Made by a program: the position numbers and the translations under genes. Below, one piece after another: positions 4,075 through 52,468 of a stretch of 58,393 nucleotides of DNA. Location of the stretch: assembly GCA_021779375.1 (NCBI GenBank), contig JAJYAT010000007.1, positions 1 through 58,393 of the forward strand. The letters run 5' to 3'. Within the stretch, counting starts at the first letter, position 1, and each line of letters opens with the position of its first letter. Source of the stretch: a bacterium. Its GTDB lineage: Bacteria; Patescibacteriota; Gracilibacteria; JAHISY01. The notes below the pieces were generated by a model. The model was not told the origin of the DNA and made no database searches. It saw only the letters and a list, made by a program, of their open reading frames with translations.

Positions 4075-4102
4075 GTAGGGAACGGACATGTCCGTTCCCT
4101 AC
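4075..4102. repeat. 28-bp perfect palindrome, GTAGGGAACGGACA family
   Basis: Each half reads GTAGGGAACGGACA, so the unit can fold into a perfect 14-bp stem. It lies in the 337-base non-coding gap before hisG with a second, unrelated-core palindrome 57 bases on. This looks like a REP-type dispersed element and not a terminator, because no T run follows. Confidence 0.75.
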
Positions 4103-4159: not shown

Positions 4160-4187
4160 GTAGAGACGTTGCATGCAACGTCTCTAC
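4160..4187. repeat. 28-bp perfect palindrome, GTAGAGACG family
   Basis: Each half reads GTAGAGACGTTGCA. The outer arm TAGAGACG...CGTCTCTA is the same as the palindrome inside the first REP-associated transposase gene (21329-21354), with a different centre. The shared arm suggests that this is a target or product of that enzyme. Confidence 0.8.
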
Positions 4188-20360: not shown

Positions 20361-20921
20361 ATGTACGAAATCACTGACCTTAAAATCGGCACGAATATCG
20401 CAATCGACGGCGAGCCGTTTCGCATCGTCTGGAATCAATTCAGCAAAACCGGACGACAGGGCGGCGTGATGGCGGTCAAGATGAAGAATTTGCTGAACGG
20501 CAAAGTCATTCCCAAGACCTTCCAGGGTGCGGACAAAATCACGCCAGCGGAGATCGCGATGAAGACCGCGCAATTTCTCTACAAAGATGCGATGGGCTTC
20601 AACTTCATGAATTTGGAAGACTTTGAGCAATTCGCGCTTTCGGAGGATGCGGTCGGCGCCGCCGGACAATTTCTCCAAGACGGCGAGGAATATGATTTGA
20701 TGTATTTCGACGGCACGCCGATCAATGTCAACTTGCCAATCAAAATGGAATTCACAGTCAAAGAGACGATGCCAGGCGTCAAAGGCGACACTGCTTCGGG
20801 CGGCAGCAAGCCAGCCTTGCTCGACTGCGGCATCACGGTCGCCGTGCCGCTCTTCATTTCCGAAGGTGAAAAAATTCGTATCAACACGGACACTTTGGAT
20901 TACGTCGAGCGCGCGAATTAA
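20361..20921 (+). CDS. efp: Elongation factor P
   Basis: Relieves ribosome stalling at proline runs. 186 residues, three-barrel tRNA-mimic: N-terminal KOW-like domain, OB domains with DAVGAAGQFLQDGEEYDLMYFDGTPI and the C-terminal signature GDTASGGSKPALLDCGITVAVPLFI. The loop that reaches the peptidyl centre reads SKTGRQGGV with Arg at residue 32, where E. coli has the modified Lys34. This resembles the Arg32 type that EarP rhamnosylates, but no EarP gene is in the window. The prolines usual beside the tip are also absent. Confidence 0.96.
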   Translation: MYEITDLKIGTNIAIDGEPFRIVWNQFSKTGRQGGVMAVKMKNLLNGKVIPKTFQGADKITPAEIAMKTAQFLYKDAMGFNFMNLEDFEQFALSEDAVGAAGQFLQDGEEYDLMYFDGTPINVNLPIKMEFTVKETMPGVKGDTASGGSKPALLDCGITVAVPLFISEGEKIRINTDTLDYVERAN

Positions 20922-20969
20922 TTCCTGCAAAAAGCCGCAAACGTGCTAAAATCAAGAGAATCTTTTTTT

Positions 20970-21599
20970 GTGAATAAGCTTTTTCAGAAAAAATACCGCA
21001 TCGCTTCTGCGCGCCTAAGCGGTTTTGATTATTCCCAGGACGGATATTATTTCGTGACGATTTGTACGAACGGTCGAAAAAATTTTTTTGGTGAAATTAA
21101 AAATCAACAAATGTTTCTGTCGCCAATCGGCAGAATCGCTAGACAATCTTGGCAGGAAATTCCGCAACATTTTCCATTTGTGCAGCTGGATCAATTTGTC
21201 GTGATGCCAGATCATGTTCACGGAATTGTGGTTATTGATAATTGGACCGGCAGCAATGAAAACATCGACACAGATAGAGACGCAAACATTGGCACAGATA
21301 GAGATAGAGACGCAAACATGGGCACAGATAGAGACGCAAAATTTTGCGTCTCTACTACGAGTACGGGAAATAAATTCGGACCTCAGTCCAAAAATCTCGC
21401 CTCAGTTATTCGAGGTTTCAAAGTCGGCGTAAAAAAATACGCGACACTGAACAAAATTCCTTTTGCTTGGCAGCCGCGCTTTTTCGATAGAATCATTCGC
21501 GACGATGCCGAATTTAATCGTGTCCAAGATTACATCAGCACGAATGTGGCAAACTGGGAAAAAGATGCAGGTAGCAGAGATGCTAATCTTTACGAATGA
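20970..21599 (+). CDS. REP-associated tyrosine transposase (RAYT), Y1/HUH type
   Basis: IS200-like single-strand DNA transposase domesticated or co-mobile with REP palindromes. 209 residues from GTG. Visible are DGYYFVTICTNGRKNFFGEI (family N-terminus), MPDHVHGIVVI (HUH metal site) and VQDYISTNVANW (helix with the nucleophile Tyr). Between the HUH strand and the next conserved block (NLASVIRGFKVGVKKYA) lies an in-frame, tandemly repeated insert (21270-21354) ending in a perfect palindrome. TAAAAT is 17 bases upstream. The stop overlaps the uvrB start by ATGA. A start at 20943 is possible. Confidence 0.85.
   Translation: MNKLFQKKYRIASARLSGFDYSQDGYYFVTICTNGRKNFFGEIKNQQMFLSPIGRIARQSWQEIPQHFPFVQLDQFVVMPDHVHGIVVIDNWTGSNENIDTDRDANIGTDRDRDANMGTDRDAKFCVSTTSTGNKFGPQSKNLASVIRGFKVGVKKYATLNKIPFAWQPRFFDRIIRDDAEFNRVQDYISTNVANWEKDAGSRDANLYE
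21270..21354 (+). repeat. In-frame tandem repeat and palindrome inside the RAYT gene
   Basis: Three units of ACAGATAGAGACGCAAA (the second with an extra GATAGA) encode TDRDAN-type repeats. The last unit runs into a 26-bp perfect palindrome (21329-21354; half TAGAGACGCAAAA). Its outer arm TAGAGACG matches the palindrome before hisG (4160-4187). The reading frame is kept throughout. Confidence 0.85.
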
Positions 21600-28089: not shown

Positions 28090-28421
28090 CGGACTGCCAA
28101 GATTATGCCGCCGAAAATTAGCGCAATGCCGAAAATCTGCGGGAAGCTGAGCGTCTCACGCAGGATGAAAAAAGAAAGCGCGAGGACGATGGCGAAAGTC
28201 CCGCCGACGAAAGCTGGGTAACCGATGGCGAGATTCGTGCGTTGCAAAAAGAGTGCGTAGAAAATGACATTCATGCCAAACAGGAAAATCGCGAGCCAAA
28301 ACAGCGGTTCGCGCAGTGTCGCGAGAGAAGCGAGGTGATCGGTTCTCTCGCCGAGGAGTTTCAGTGCGAAGCTGGCGAAACCATTGAAAGCGATGCCGAC
28401 AATAAAAATTAGGTAACTCAT
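28086..28421 (-). CDS. EmrE/ArnE-like four-helix membrane protein
   Basis: 111 residues, four membrane helices (about 1-21, 37-57, 63-83, 90-110), the SMR/EamA half-size fold. The longer frame upstream belongs to the glycosyltransferase end in another frame. The helix-1 Glu of drug-exporting EmrE is not at the usual place (MSYLIFIVGIAFNGFASFALK), which argues against drug export. ArnE/ArnF-type proteins flip lipid-linked sugars, and the neighbours here are a prenyl-phosphate sugar synthase and a GT-C enzyme, so a flippase role is a reasonable inference. Confidence 0.7.
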   Translation of the reverse strand: MSYLIFIVGIAFNGFASFALKLLGERTDHLASLATLREPLFWLAIFLFGMNVIFYALFLQRTNLAIGYPAFVGGTFAIVLALSFFILRETLSFPQIFGIALIFGGIILAVR

Positions 28422-29992
28422 GGCGTGAATTTTACTGCAAAAATCCACCAGAAATAATCGCTCGAAAAGTTCGAGCAACTTTTGGGGTCGCCTGACTTCA
28501 GCTTGGCGCGTAGCGTGAAACTGACTCCGTCCAAAATTTTCGTGTCCCCAATTTTCAAATTCGCGTCGGCGAGCGATAGGACGTTGGATTTTTTCCAAGC
28601 TGGATATTCGCGATACATTTCTTCCTCCAGTACGAAAAAATTTGGTCGTTCGTTTTTCAAGAATTGCAGCTGATCGCCGGATTGTACGAAAGGAATTGCG
28701 CGGGCATCAAGTGTGCCGTCGAGCGAAAGCATTCGACGCTCGCCAAAAAAGGCAGACTGATCGACTTCTTTCAGCGCAATCAGGCTGTCGGTGGGCGTAT
28801 TTTCTTCGAGCCACAGTCCGACATCACGGCGCGCCTGGTCGAGGAAAGGCTGTTCGCAGCTCGCGATTGACGCGCGGCGTTCCAAAAATTGTTGACCGGA
28901 AATAAGGAGACTTCCCAGAAGTACCAAAACTAAAATGGGAGTTTGCCACTTTTTGGGTAAGCGAAAAACTCCGAGAATTGAGATTAAATAAAAAAACGGC
29001 AGAGCCGCGAGAATGTAGCGGTAGCCTTCCGTCGTCGGGAAAATCACCGAGAAGAAAATCGCGTGAAAAGCGAGCCACGCGAAGATTGGATAGGAAATGC
29101 TCGAGTTAACCCACCACCTAGGTGGTGGGTTAACGGGTTTATAAAAAAAGAACAACAGGAAAAAAGGAGTGAGTGGTAAGAATTTTGTCACGAGAATCTT
29201 CGGAATTTCGAGCGTGAAGAAGATACCGCCGAATTCGTGCGCCCACTGCCGTGCGCGCAGAATCCTTGCAATCGTCGAAGGAAAAATCGAACCGGTGTTC
29301 GCAAAGAGCCAAAAGTAGTAAGGCGCAAAAATCAAAGCAGTAGGTAGACCGACAGTTAGAAGCGCGCGCCATTTTTTCTGCGCGAGTAGTCCGATCCCGA
29401 GGAAAGCCGTGAGAAACCAGGCTTCCGGGCGCGTCAAAATCGCGACTCCCAAAATCAAGCCTAAGGTTAACTCGCCAGATATCTGGGGGGTTAACGAGCT
29501 TGATGTAGATTTAGCCGGAGGGTTAACGAGTTCCAAGTAAACCAAAAAACTTCCGAGTACGAGACAGACGAAGAGCGGTGTCTCCATGCCCTTCGCTGCC
29601 CAAAACGGCAGCACGAAATTGGTCGCGAGGAGTGCGGCAGTCGCGAGTGCAGCAATGCGGTTGCTAGAAATTTTTTCGGCGAACTTAAATGCCAAAACAA
29701 TCGCGAGCGCGACAAAGAAGCTGGCTAAAATTTTGACTGCCCAGATTATTTGCATGCCAAAAATTTTCCAGACGGGCGCGAGCAGCAGACTCCAAAAGGG
29801 TGAAGTCGAACCGGCGGAAAACTGTCCATTGTAAAAAAAGAACTGACCGTCGGCGATACCGCGTGCGAAAACGAAGTGGATGAAAGCGTCGCCCATCACG
29901 ACGTTCCGTAAAAAATAAACTTGGGCAAATGCCAGCAAAACCAAAAGCGCGAGCCACACGGAATTCGGAATTCGAGCTAAAAATTTTTTCAC
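28418..29992 (-). CDS. GT-C fold membrane glycosyltransferase
   Basis: 524 residues from the GTG at 29992, which forms a GTGA overlap with the upstream gene (a frame reaches to 30028). About ten membrane helices in the first 400 residues; the first loop carries VVMGDAFIHFVFARGIADG with the Asp expected for a GT-C base and AGSTSPFWSLLLAP. A soluble C-terminal part follows (about 400-524). It should transfer sugar from a polyprenyl-phosphate donor on the outer face. Two loop regions hold in-frame inserts from the GTTAAC palindrome family (VNPPPRWWVNSS; VNPPAKSTSSSLTPQ). Arabinofuranosyl- or mannosyl-transfer cannot be told apart. Confidence 0.75.
   Translation of the reverse strand: MKKFLARIPNSVWLALLVLLAFAQVYFLRNVVMGDAFIHFVFARGIADGQFFFYNGQFSAGSTSPFWSLLLAPVWKIFGMQIIWAVKILASFFVALAIVLAFKFAEKISSNRIAALATAALLATNFVLPFWAAKGMETPLFVCLVLGSFLVYLELVNPPAKSTSSSLTPQISGELTLGLILGVAILTRPEAWFLTAFLGIGLLAQKKWRALLTVGLPTALIFAPYYFWLFANTGSIFPSTIARILRARQWAHEFGGIFFTLEIPKILVTKFLPLTPFFLLFFFYKPVNPPPRWWVNSSISYPIFAWLAFHAIFFSVIFPTTEGYRYILAALPFFYLISILGVFRLPKKWQTPILVLVLLGSLLISGQQFLERRASIASCEQPFLDQARRDVGLWLEENTPTDSLIALKEVDQSAFFGERRMLSLDGTLDARAIPFVQSGDQLQFLKNERPNFFVLEEEMYREYPAWKKSNVLSLADANLKIGDTKILDGVSFTLRAKLKSGDPKSCSNFSSDYFWWIFAVKFTP
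29105..29134. repeat. 30-bp palindrome inside the GT-C gene (GTTAACCCACCACCT family)
   Basis: Perfect palindrome whose half is GTTAACCCACCACCT. It is translated in frame as a loop insert (VNPPPRWWVN). An identical copy lies between genes at 31115-31144, and a diverged copy is at 29466-29495. Confidence 0.85.
29466..29495. repeat. Diverged member of the GTTAAC palindrome family in the GT-C gene
   Basis: Same length (30) and same GTTAAC ends, with two mismatches between the halves (GTTAACTCGCCAGAT / ATCTGGGGGGTTAAC). A further half-site (GGTTAACGAG) begins at 29521. The whole patch encodes a Ser/Pro/Thr-rich loop. Confidence 0.6.
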
Positions 29993-30834
29993 GCGAAATA
30001 CAAAATGGCGAAGACGGCGAACATCCACGCGACGACGCTCCCGAGGAGCGGGAGATCATGAAAAAGTAAATCAGTCGGATTTTCATGCGCGGACTTACGT
30101 TCAATCAGTAGCAAGTAACGCAGCAGGCCGAAGACGACGATGGGCGCTGTCCAGAAAAAGTTGGCGGATTCGCTCGCCTGAAATGAGTAAAAAAGGTAGC
30201 TCACCAGAATCGCCGGCAATAAAATTTTGATCGTTGATTGCAGAAAAGCGGGCGGATATTTCGCGAGGACTTTGCGCGAGACGTGTCCAGCCGTCTCGAT
30301 TTCGCGCAATCTTTTGCCGGCGGCGAGCAGGAGGGCGAGGAGAAAAGTAATCGCGAGTAGCCAACCAGAGAGCGTGACACTGGCAGCGATACCACCGGCG
30401 AAGATTCGTAAAATAAATCCGAGCGAAATGCTGAGCAGGTCGATGATTGCCAAATGCTTCAGCCATAGCGAGTAGGCGATTTGTAAAAGAATGTAGCTGC
30501 CGACAATTACAATCAATGTTCCAAAATTTGCTGCGAGAAAAAGTGCCGCGAGGAGGAGCGCTCCGCTCAAGACGATGGCGATTCTTTTCGGCAGTCGCCC
30601 GCTGGCGATGGGACGCGTTTTTTTGGTGTGGTGGTGGCGGTCGGATTCACAGTCCAGGATGTCATTCAAAACATAGACACCGCTCGACGCGAGACAGAAA
30701 ATACCGAAAGTCGCAGCGACTTTGGCGATCGAATCAAGATTTAAGAATTCGCGTGCGAAAACCAGCGGAACGAAAATTAACAGATTTTTGATCCACTGTT
30801 TTGGTCGGAGCGTTTCCAAAATCGCGAAAAACAT
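29989..30834 (-). CDS. UbiA-family polyprenyl-phosphate phosphoribosyltransferase-like protein
   Basis: 281 residues, 8-9 membrane helices. The N-terminus RPKQWIKNLLIFVPLVFA and the motif YVLNDILDCESDRHHHTKKTRPIASG are those of decaprenyl-phosphate phosphoribosyltransferases, which join PRPP to a polyprenyl phosphate as the first step to the lipid-linked arabinose donor. The Asp-rich motif binds Mg-diphosphate. TAAAAT is 7 bases before the ATG. It heads a unit with the GT-C enzyme and the SMR-like protein (overlapping ends). DprE1/DprE2-like epimerase genes are not in the window, so the final sugar is unknown. Confidence 0.85.
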   Translation of the reverse strand: MFFAILETLRPKQWIKNLLIFVPLVFAREFLNLDSIAKVAATFGIFCLASSGVYVLNDILDCESDRHHHTKKTRPIASGRLPKRIAIVLSGALLLAALFLAANFGTLIVIVGSYILLQIAYSLWLKHLAIIDLLSISLGFILRIFAGGIAASVTLSGWLLAITFLLALLLAAGKRLREIETAGHVSRKVLAKYPPAFLQSTIKILLPAILVSYLFYSFQASESANFFWTAPIVVFGLLRYLLLIERKSAHENPTDLLFHDLPLLGSVVAWMFAVFAILYFA

Positions 30835-31114: not shown

Positions 31115-31144
31115 GTTAACCCACCACCTAGGTGGTGGGTTAAC
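31115..31144. repeat. 30-bp palindrome, intergenic copy (GTTAACCCACCACCT family)
   Basis: Identical to the copy inside the GT-C gene at 29105-29134. It lies between the GIY-YIG gene and tRNA-Met. No T run follows, so it is a dispersed repeat and not a simple terminator. The stretch 31145-31222 is AT-rich and shows nothing else. Confidence 0.85.
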
Positions 31145-51755: not shown

Positions 51756-51786
51756 GTCATAAGTCATAAGTCATAAGTCATAAGTA
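51753..51786 (+). repeat. TAAGTCA tandem repeat at the dnaG stop
   Basis: Four exact heptamers TAAGTCA and one partial copy. The first unit supplies the dnaG TAA stop. Heptamer spacing means that stop codons fall in all three frames in succession. No hairpin; not a CRISPR. Confidence 0.8.
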
Positions 51787-51815
51787 TAGATTTTGGTTTT
51801 ATTGCTCGGCGGGCA

Positions 51816-51837
51816 GGCGCGGTCACGTGACCACGCC
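51816..51837. repeat. 22-bp palindrome before the second RAYT gene (GGCGCGGTCAC family)
   Basis: Halves GGCGCGGTCAC / GTGACCACGCC, one mismatch. It contains a possible GTG start (51827) of the transposase frame. A perfect copy is inside the same gene at 52171-52192, also preceded by GCA. Confidence 0.8.
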
Positions 51838-51856
51838 TACGTCTGCACAACAGAAA

Positions 51857-52468
51857 ATGCTAAGCAAAAAATCTCCTCGACGGATACACGAAGACGACGC
51901 GATTTATTTCGCGACCAGTAAAACGCAAAACAATTTTCCATTTTTTCGCGAAGAAATTCTGGGAGATTTGTGGATTGCAGAATTGAGCTTGGTGAAGCAG
52001 ATTAAAAAGTTTGAGCTCTATGCTTTTTGTTTGCTGCCGGATCATTTTCATATTTTGTTGCGACCGCGTTCAACAGCAAATCTTTCGGAAGTTATGCGTT
52101 CGTTCAAAACAAATTTTTCGAGAAATGCCAATCGGGTTTTGGGTTTTTCAGATTCACCATTTCCGCTGCAGGCGCGGTCACGTGACCGCGCCCACAAAAA
52201 TAGTACCCACAAAAACATTGCTCCATTATTAGCCCAAGCGGACGTTGGCGAAAAATTAGCGCAATTTTTTTTGGAAAAACACGGAGCAAACAATCACTTT
52301 CCCAAATTCGCGTGGCAGAAATCTTTTCACGATCACGGTCTGCGCGGCGAGTGTGATTTCGAAAATCATTTTGTTTACTGTACGCAAAATTTCATCAAAC
52401 ACGGTTTGGCGGCGAACTGGAAATTCACATCGCTTAATTTTCCCGAGCTGATTGATTTGCTCGGCTGA
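51857..52468 (+). CDS. Second REP-associated tyrosine transposase (RAYT)
   Basis: 203 residues from the ATG at 51857 (a GTG at 51827 within the palindrome would add 10). Marks: RRIHEDDAIYFATSKT, FCLLPDHFHILLRP (HUH metal site), a central AWQKSFHDHGLRGECDFENHFVYCTQNFIKHGL with the nucleophile Tyr in HFVYCTQNFIKHG. Between the HUH and Tyr blocks is an in-frame copy of the GGCGCGGTCAC palindrome (encoding ARSRDRAH). It is distinct in sequence from the first RAYT, so the two are separate lineages, each with its own palindrome. It converges with yebC, 2 bases apart. Confidence 0.82.
   Translation: MLSKKSPRRIHEDDAIYFATSKTQNNFPFFREEILGDLWIAELSLVKQIKKFELYAFCLLPDHFHILLRPRSTANLSEVMRSFKTNFSRNANRVLGFSDSPFPLQARSRDRAHKNSTHKNIAPLLAQADVGEKLAQFFLEKHGANNHFPKFAWQKSFHDHGLRGECDFENHFVYCTQNFIKHGLAANWKFTSLNFPELIDLLG
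52171..52192. repeat. 22-bp perfect palindrome inside the second RAYT gene
   Basis: Half GGCGCGGTCAC. It is translated in frame and does not disrupt either catalytic block. Same family as 51816-51837. Confidence 0.85.

Follow-up and report, generated by a model that had tools for sequence, protein, structure and literature searches.

The variable core of the palindrome that many RAYT (TnpA_REP) genes carry within their own reading frame co-varies, across phyla, with residues 60–68 and 142–153 of the encoded protein, unlike with the HUH block that adjoins the linker in which the palindrome lies. One such gene is located in the 58,393-nt stretch of DNA analysed here (the window), and we consider it likely that it encodes a TnpA_REP/RAYT of the subclass with in-gene double-foot REPs, that the hairpin is read by two helices of the enzyme and that the copy in the gene is kept as a cognate substrate or seed. 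Because the rules that connect residues with bases also held on new genes, the in-gene REP is predicted to be, most likely, the enzyme's own substrate.

The window gene and the palindrome in its linker

The gene (20970..21599, + strand, 209 aa) is a RAYT, as the sequence-only reading had proposed. It starts with GTG at 20970 (alternative GTG at 20943), its frame is flanked by genes ending at 20921 and starting at 21596, and its 3′ end overlaps the latter by 4 nt. Judged by their sequences, these neighbours are presumably an elongation factor P-like gene and uvrB, respectively. An HUH motif (HxH; H82 and H84, 21213..21221, +) and a single candidate catalytic tyrosine, Y188 in YISTN (21531..21533, +), are placed in a Y1 fold, and both are invariant in the alignments A1–A3. 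The NCBIfam RAYT model NF047646 matched the protein with E 1.3e-14 and 54.3 bits (cut-off 80) and Pfam Y1_Tnp with E 0.0014 and 19.2 bits (cut-off 23), both under the cut-off; the long linker splits the match. For the AlphaFold model (mean pLDDT 81.6, pTM 0.73, linker pLDDT about 50), the top fold match was 4er8, a RAYT with a REP hairpin (Foldseek E 8.9e-6; Z 12.9 over 130 residues, 3.2 A), followed by the IS608 TnpA (Z 11.3).

The palindrome that had been noticed in the linker between the blocks was confirmed as well: TAGAGACGCAAAATTTTGCGTCTCTA at 21329–21354 is a perfect 26-bp palindrome with a 13-bp stem, located in frame downstream of the HxH block and ahead of the IIxxFK/Tyr blocks, in a linker that is predicted to be disordered. 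The entire REP (21328..21355, +) reads ATAG-AGACG-CAAAA and then TTTTG-CGTCT-CTAC and encodes D-R-D-A-K-F-C-V-S-T. Its foot is ATAG on the + strand and GTAG on the − strand, i.e., the 3′ foot is intact and the 5′ foot is one mismatch away from the canonical double foot GT[AG]G...C[TC]AC, to which we count it; most relatives have GTAG/CTAC. The three tandem units described for the same linker (21270..21340, +) are direct left-half copies (ACAGATAGAGACGCAAA), two of which are exact (21270–21286 and 21324–21340), whereas the middle one (21294–21316) carries 6 extra nt. In the window, TAGAGACG occurs six times vs 0.79 times expected, a number that none of 100 shuffles reached. Similar half-repeat expansions are present in other RAYT linkers. 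There, 44 extra left halves were counted beside the full palindrome in 34 of 217 genes (e.g., L013, L163 and L217), 42 of them upstream. Extra right halves numbered 35, distributed over 25 genes, and the controls with reversed words gave 1 and 0.

Linker palindromes, defined by a stem length minus twice the number of mismatches of at least 10, were found in 217 of 334 RAYT genes from many phyla, vs 7 in the preceding and 3 in the following block. The first of three sets, from the class of the window genome, comprised 118 near-full-length genes, among the matches listed, from the 77 of 242 class genomes with a match; fragments were left out, as was the full-length row G240:C89. Here, the linker contained a palindrome in 91 genes, the preceding block in none and the following block in one, and palindromes occurred within 300 nt upstream in 43 and downstream in 27 cases. 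Dinucleotide shuffles of these 118 linkers yielded a palindrome in 0.6%. The set from named genomes consisted of 80 loci, mostly from Bacteroidota but also from Planctomycetes, Chlorobiota, Chloroflexota, Proteobacteria and others, and had 54 palindromes in the linker, six in the preceding and one in the following block. The later, held-out set contained 136 genes, from which fragments, the short rows L270 and L271, the repeats L327, L315 and L310 (of L191, L175 and L226) and L292–L307 (repeats of first-set loci) had been excluded. Its 72 linker palindromes came from other classes of the phylum (27 of 39 genes), from paralogs in named genomes (16 of 28) and from the phylum to which a Caenarcanales genome belongs, taken as Cyanobacteria (29 of 66; a match in 56 of 244 genomes), and none from the three viral genes. 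Altogether, 117 of the 334 genes were without a linker palindrome, including 37 of 66 in Cyanobacteria and all three on viral contigs. Relatives were also noticed in three plasmid records.

The outer sequence of these palindromes is nearly always GTAGRGACG-like, and the inner five bases, the core, are variable. The three reading phases were used 67, 23 and 1 times among the first 91 and 45, 27 and 0 times among the 72 held-out palindromes. The avoided phase is the one in which GTAG would be read as TAG (1 of 91, in a gene without this TAG, and 0 of 72).

Covariation between two helices and the palindrome core

For the analysis of covariation, 137 genes were used after 8 of 145 palindromes had been dropped for lack of a recognisable foot. 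The core was identical to that of the nearest protein from another genome in 50 of the 137 genes (shuffle mean 4.0, maximum 13). Segments of 12 residues predicted the core in 20–27 of 137 genes at residues 53–76 and in 31–61 at residues 86–162, with the best segment, N142–G153, reaching 61.3 of 137 where about 3.9 were expected. Segments elsewhere reached 4–16 of 137, and the HUH block (residues 74–88) only 8–10, although it adjoins the linker.

Two elements of the model stand out in the single alignment columns. Helix A with the following turn (residues 52–68, 21123..21173, +; model helices 52–62 and 64–67) contains residues 60, 63, 64, 67 and 68, which change together with the palindrome's innermost base. 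Helix B (residues 143–160, 21396..21449, +; model helix 143–160) and its surroundings contribute residues 142, 145, 148, 149, 152 and 153, which co-vary with core positions 1–4, bases 2–4 going especially with 148, 149, 152, 153 and their neighbours. With F68, the innermost base was A in 60 genes, T in 7 and G in none, and with R68 it was G in 37, T in 2 and A in none; Y68 had no clear base. G153 was accompanied by A at core position 4 in 19 of 19 genes. Compensatory changes inside the palindromes are not claimed here, since the palindromes were selected for being palindromic.

Independent contrasts were calculated on a tree from columns outside the helices and the linker. For residue 68, 22 of 24 contrasts were concordant and none was reversed (shuffle mean 5.1, maximum 13 of 24). 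Residue 64 followed with 20 of 24, G153 with 15 of 16 and R153 with 7 of 7, while Q149 (12 of 19) and S149 (15 of 23) had one reversed contrast each. Five residue quartets of helix B, RSSA and NQSI among them, were seen with both F68 and R68, and in each of them the innermost base tracked residue 68. The same association was found within single genomes, where 23 of 24 F/H68–R68 pairs from 12 genomes were concordant and none was reversed.

The residues had been chosen on the first data set; the new genes therefore tested the rules, not the choice of residues. These residue-to-base rules were written down before the test on the 136 new genes with their 72 linker palindromes. Arg68 predicted an innermost G in 18 of 18 cases (base rate 0.32), and with Phe, His, Ala or Asn68 the predicted A or T was present in 33 of 35 (0.68). 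For helix B, Gly153 was followed by A in 4 of 5 (0.08), Arg153 by T in 7 of 7 (0.24) and Gln149 by C in 9 of 9 cases (0.26), whereas Ser149 to G was a weak rule (15 of 24; 0.24). Such plain counts ignore the kinship of the genes, for which the contrasts correct: on a tree of the held-out genes only, residue 68 gave 9 of 11 concordant contrasts with none reversed, none of 5000 shuffles was as good, and the other rules were without reversed contrasts, too. Trained on the first set over all 159 columns, the best predictors of the innermost base (core position 5) were columns 64, 68, 67, 60 and 63, which were correct for 55 to 51 of the 72 held-out genes vs 37 for the majority rule. For core base 3, the best held-out columns were 152, 148, 149 and 145.

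REPs outside the genes

The window is contig C10 of a genome of 1.07 Mb in 14 contigs (98% complete). A genome-wide count of the palindrome, as TAGAGACG followed after 4–24 nt by CGTCTCTA, gave seven occurrences vs none for the reversed control. GTAG-type palindromes numbered 26 (24 by pattern, the one in the window gene and one with ATAG feet); seven of them lie within an open frame of at least 110 aa, all seven in RAYT linkers, and the other 19 in none. Seven RAYTs of this genome align to most of the window protein, each with a perfect linker palindrome, and their cores are CAAAA (the window gene), CCCCA, GCAGA (twice), GGTCG, CCCCG and GAAAA. The window RAYT has F68, G149 and G153, for which the core CAAAA is predicted, and the RAYT on contig C14 has R68, with CCCCG as the predicted core. 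An eighth, more distant Y1 gene, a different RAYT, is located in the window at 51770–52465 (+), scores over the cut-off of NF047646 (93.3 bits) and contains its own palindrome GGCGCGGTCACGTGACCGCGCC at 52171–52192; the same GGTCACGTGACC centre is also present at 51821, not far into the frame.

The sequence-only reading had matched the in-gene palindrome with one before hisG. The double-foot REP GTAGAGACGTTGCATGCAACGTCTCTAC at 4160..4187 does possess the same 9-nt arm, but its core is TTGCA, not CAAAA, and we rejected it as a copy. Judged by its core, it is the REP of another RAYT subtype (SLSxIIRSFKS) and not that of the window gene; in the window, palindromes with the same arm and another core would generally belong to different enzymes. 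A second intergenic REP with the GTAGGGAAC arm, GTAGGGAACGGACATGTCCGTTCCCTAC at 4075..4102, has the core GGACA. The genome contains four TTGCA REPs (4160–4187, C2:117622, C4:82250 and C12:159793) and none of the RAYTs found in it is of the TTGCA type; the congeners G001 and G004 do carry such a RAYT (core TTGCG). A tie between the enzyme and a REP family, likewise proposed, stands insofar as the family is carried in frame in the enzyme's own linker; besides this copy, a search of the whole genome with up to one mismatch found no dispersed CAAAA-core REP, and none flanks the gene. The suggestion that the enzyme inserts such units into its own gene found no support, as neither an empty linker site nor an insertion event was found. 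A further observation in the window is a 30-bp perfect palindrome, GTTAACCCACCACCTAGGTGGTGGGTTAAC, present at 29105–29134 and at 31115–31144, the former copy in frame in a membrane-protein-like ORF (28418–30028, −).

Other genomes carried cognate REPs near the genes and dispersed. Around genes with a linker REP, up to a distance of 1 kb, 110 canonical REPs were counted, 69 of them with the 5-nt core of that linker REP (2.5 expected). Of the 117 genes without a linker palindrome, 13 had a canonical flanking REP; for these, the two residue-68 rules held in 2 of 2 and in 9 of 9 cases, the G153 rule in 0 of 1 and the S149 rule in 5 of 6. Comparing genomes with and without a RAYT gave a mixed result. 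Dispersed CAAAA REPs were present in 7 of the 9 class genomes with a CAAAA RAYT vs 6 of 233 others (p 6.7e-9; RAYTs among the matches listed), and GTAG-type palindromes averaged 10.05 per genome in the 77 genomes with a RAYT among the matches listed vs 3.55 in the 165 without, with a control pattern equal in both. Only this contrast was used, because the background of the broad pattern GTAGRRR is high, the control being present 5 to 8 times in a genome. For TTGCR, however, the dispersal was weak and the comparison not clean (dispersed copies in 2 of the 4 genomes that have a RAYT of this type vs 12 of 238 others, the present genome included).

Proposed reading of the hairpin and possible reasons for a target within the gene

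The covariation would assign the reading of the innermost base to helix A and that of the following bases to helix B. In the mechanism we propose, the enzyme would fold one REP strand into a hairpin with the innermost bases forming its loop, and loop and upper stem would be read directly; the symmetrical feet would permit the use of either strand. Less surely, the in-gene copy may be kept as a co-inherited cognate substrate or seed copy, with which the target would travel wherever the gene goes. For RAYTs with in-gene REPs in general, we lean towards a modular two-helix code by which the loop of a perfect hairpin and its upper stem are read, each gene carrying its own copy of the target. If this is true, the target of any such enzyme could be read from its gene, and a swap of the few residues of the code should give the enzyme another hairpin as its target. 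A gene with its target inside allows enzyme and REP to be paired by sequence in many phyla, and yields point predictions on how RAYTs recognise perfect-palindrome REPs.

Alternatively, the copy could be regulatory instead of a seed: the finished enzyme would bind the hairpin in its own single-stranded DNA or mRNA and thereby limit its expression, or cut its own gene. The in-gene hairpin has the core type of its own enzyme and forms part of the gene's transcript, and no other cognate REP was found in this genome; therefore, the only predicted target of the window RAYT is itself. Nevertheless, short-linker RAYTs without an in-gene palindrome exist, and we regard such self-control as possible but on the unlikely side. 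As reasons for keeping the site within the gene, we would rank the seed copy first and self-control second.

It is rather improbable that the window gene is just an ordinary RAYT of subclass 2.4 with an in-gene REP as published, adding only a new lineage. In-gene REPs in RAYTs are known already, and the window gene adds a case: according to the accessible part of Quentin 2018 (PMC6006769), subclass 2.4 is marked by REPs inserted in frame into tnpA_REP genes, between HuH and Y, and by their double-foot form. The window gene resembles this subclass in its HUH Y1 type, its long HuH–Y spacing, its double-foot GT[AG]G...C[TC]AC REP and the in-frame location of the latter between HuH and Y. According to the same part, subclass 2.4 is spread over Cyanobacteria, Bacteroidetes and other phyla, while the window gene belongs to a Patescibacteria-like class; the motifs given there are NH[IFV]H, WQ and YIxNNP, compared with DHVH, WQ and YISTN in the window gene and NHVH, WQ and YIxxNP in its relatives. 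In the accessible text, the insert is regarded as a peripheral extension that affects the protein little, whereas here the core of the insert tracks the protein's helices. RAYT–REP coevolution is stated in general terms there and in the abstract of Corneloup 2021 (PMC8266576), which, as far as its accessible part goes, offers no more than speculation about the group 3 contacts. Residue-to-base rules and their success out of sample were found neither in the accessible part of Quentin 2018 nor in the other literature searched; for a residue-to-base code of subclass 2.4, this literature was open-access, with most subscription papers outside it.

Comparison with E. coli TnpA_REP (4er8), the top fold match, is instructive in this respect. 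Its hairpin has a GTAG foot as well, and the helix before its WQ block is the DNA-binding alpha3 with K82 (accessible part of PMC8266576), the place of which corresponds to helix B by sequence order, not by superposed coordinates. According to the same source, the E. coli REP is bulged, the enzyme recognises only the structure of its upper stem-loop, and REPs flank the gene with none inside; here, a perfect palindrome lies within the gene and its inner bases are apparently read. The IS200/IS605 TnpA proteins (IS608, ISDra2) share the fold (Z 10–11), HUH and Tyr; they differ in that the predicted target of the window RAYT is a REP and not IS ends, and neither IS ends nor TnpB were noticed adjoining the gene.

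That any genomic REP may have landed in a tolerant, loose linker, with a palindrome meaningless to its enzyme, appears very unlikely. The predicted disorder of the linker would fit this, as would the little effect on the protein proposed in the accessible part of Quentin 2018 (PMC6006769), the in-frame palindrome at 29105–29134 and REPs known from other genes. For the latter, the accessible part of Di Nocera 2013 (PMC3733652) reports GTAG-footed palindromes in many phyla, in-frame genic REPs and REP-flanked RAYTs; its intragenic cases concern repair and other genes, and none is named there within a RAYT. Against it, the in-gene core tracks the protein's own helices, even within one genome, and the 19 other GTAG-type REPs are all outside open frames of at least 110 aa. 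As the sole cause, neutral insertion was rejected on the match between core and residues. Least probable is that palindrome and neighbouring helix codons merely travel together by descent or gene conversion, so that the match would reflect ancestry and not contact: helix B is encoded just downstream of the linker, and plain shared descent accounts for part of the whole-protein signal, but helix A has a signal beyond the silent HUH block, the nearest 5′ of the linker, the contrasts for residue 68 are concordant with none reversed, the innermost base shifts with residue 68 on the same helix B quartets, and flanking REPs outside the gene match, too, and linkage as the sole cause was therefore rejected.

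Two side observations were made. On contig C3, outside the window, a Y1_Tnp domain (residues 354–431, E 1.9e-11) is nested in one uninterrupted frame in an isoleucyl-tRNA-synthetase-like gene (L018:445-3231; Pfam tRNA-synt_1 at residues 24–839), and no report of such a tRNA-synthetase gene was found in the literature searched. In addition, TGA is read as sense in the RAYT genes of several class relatives, which presumably fits Gracilibacteria-like Patescibacteria.
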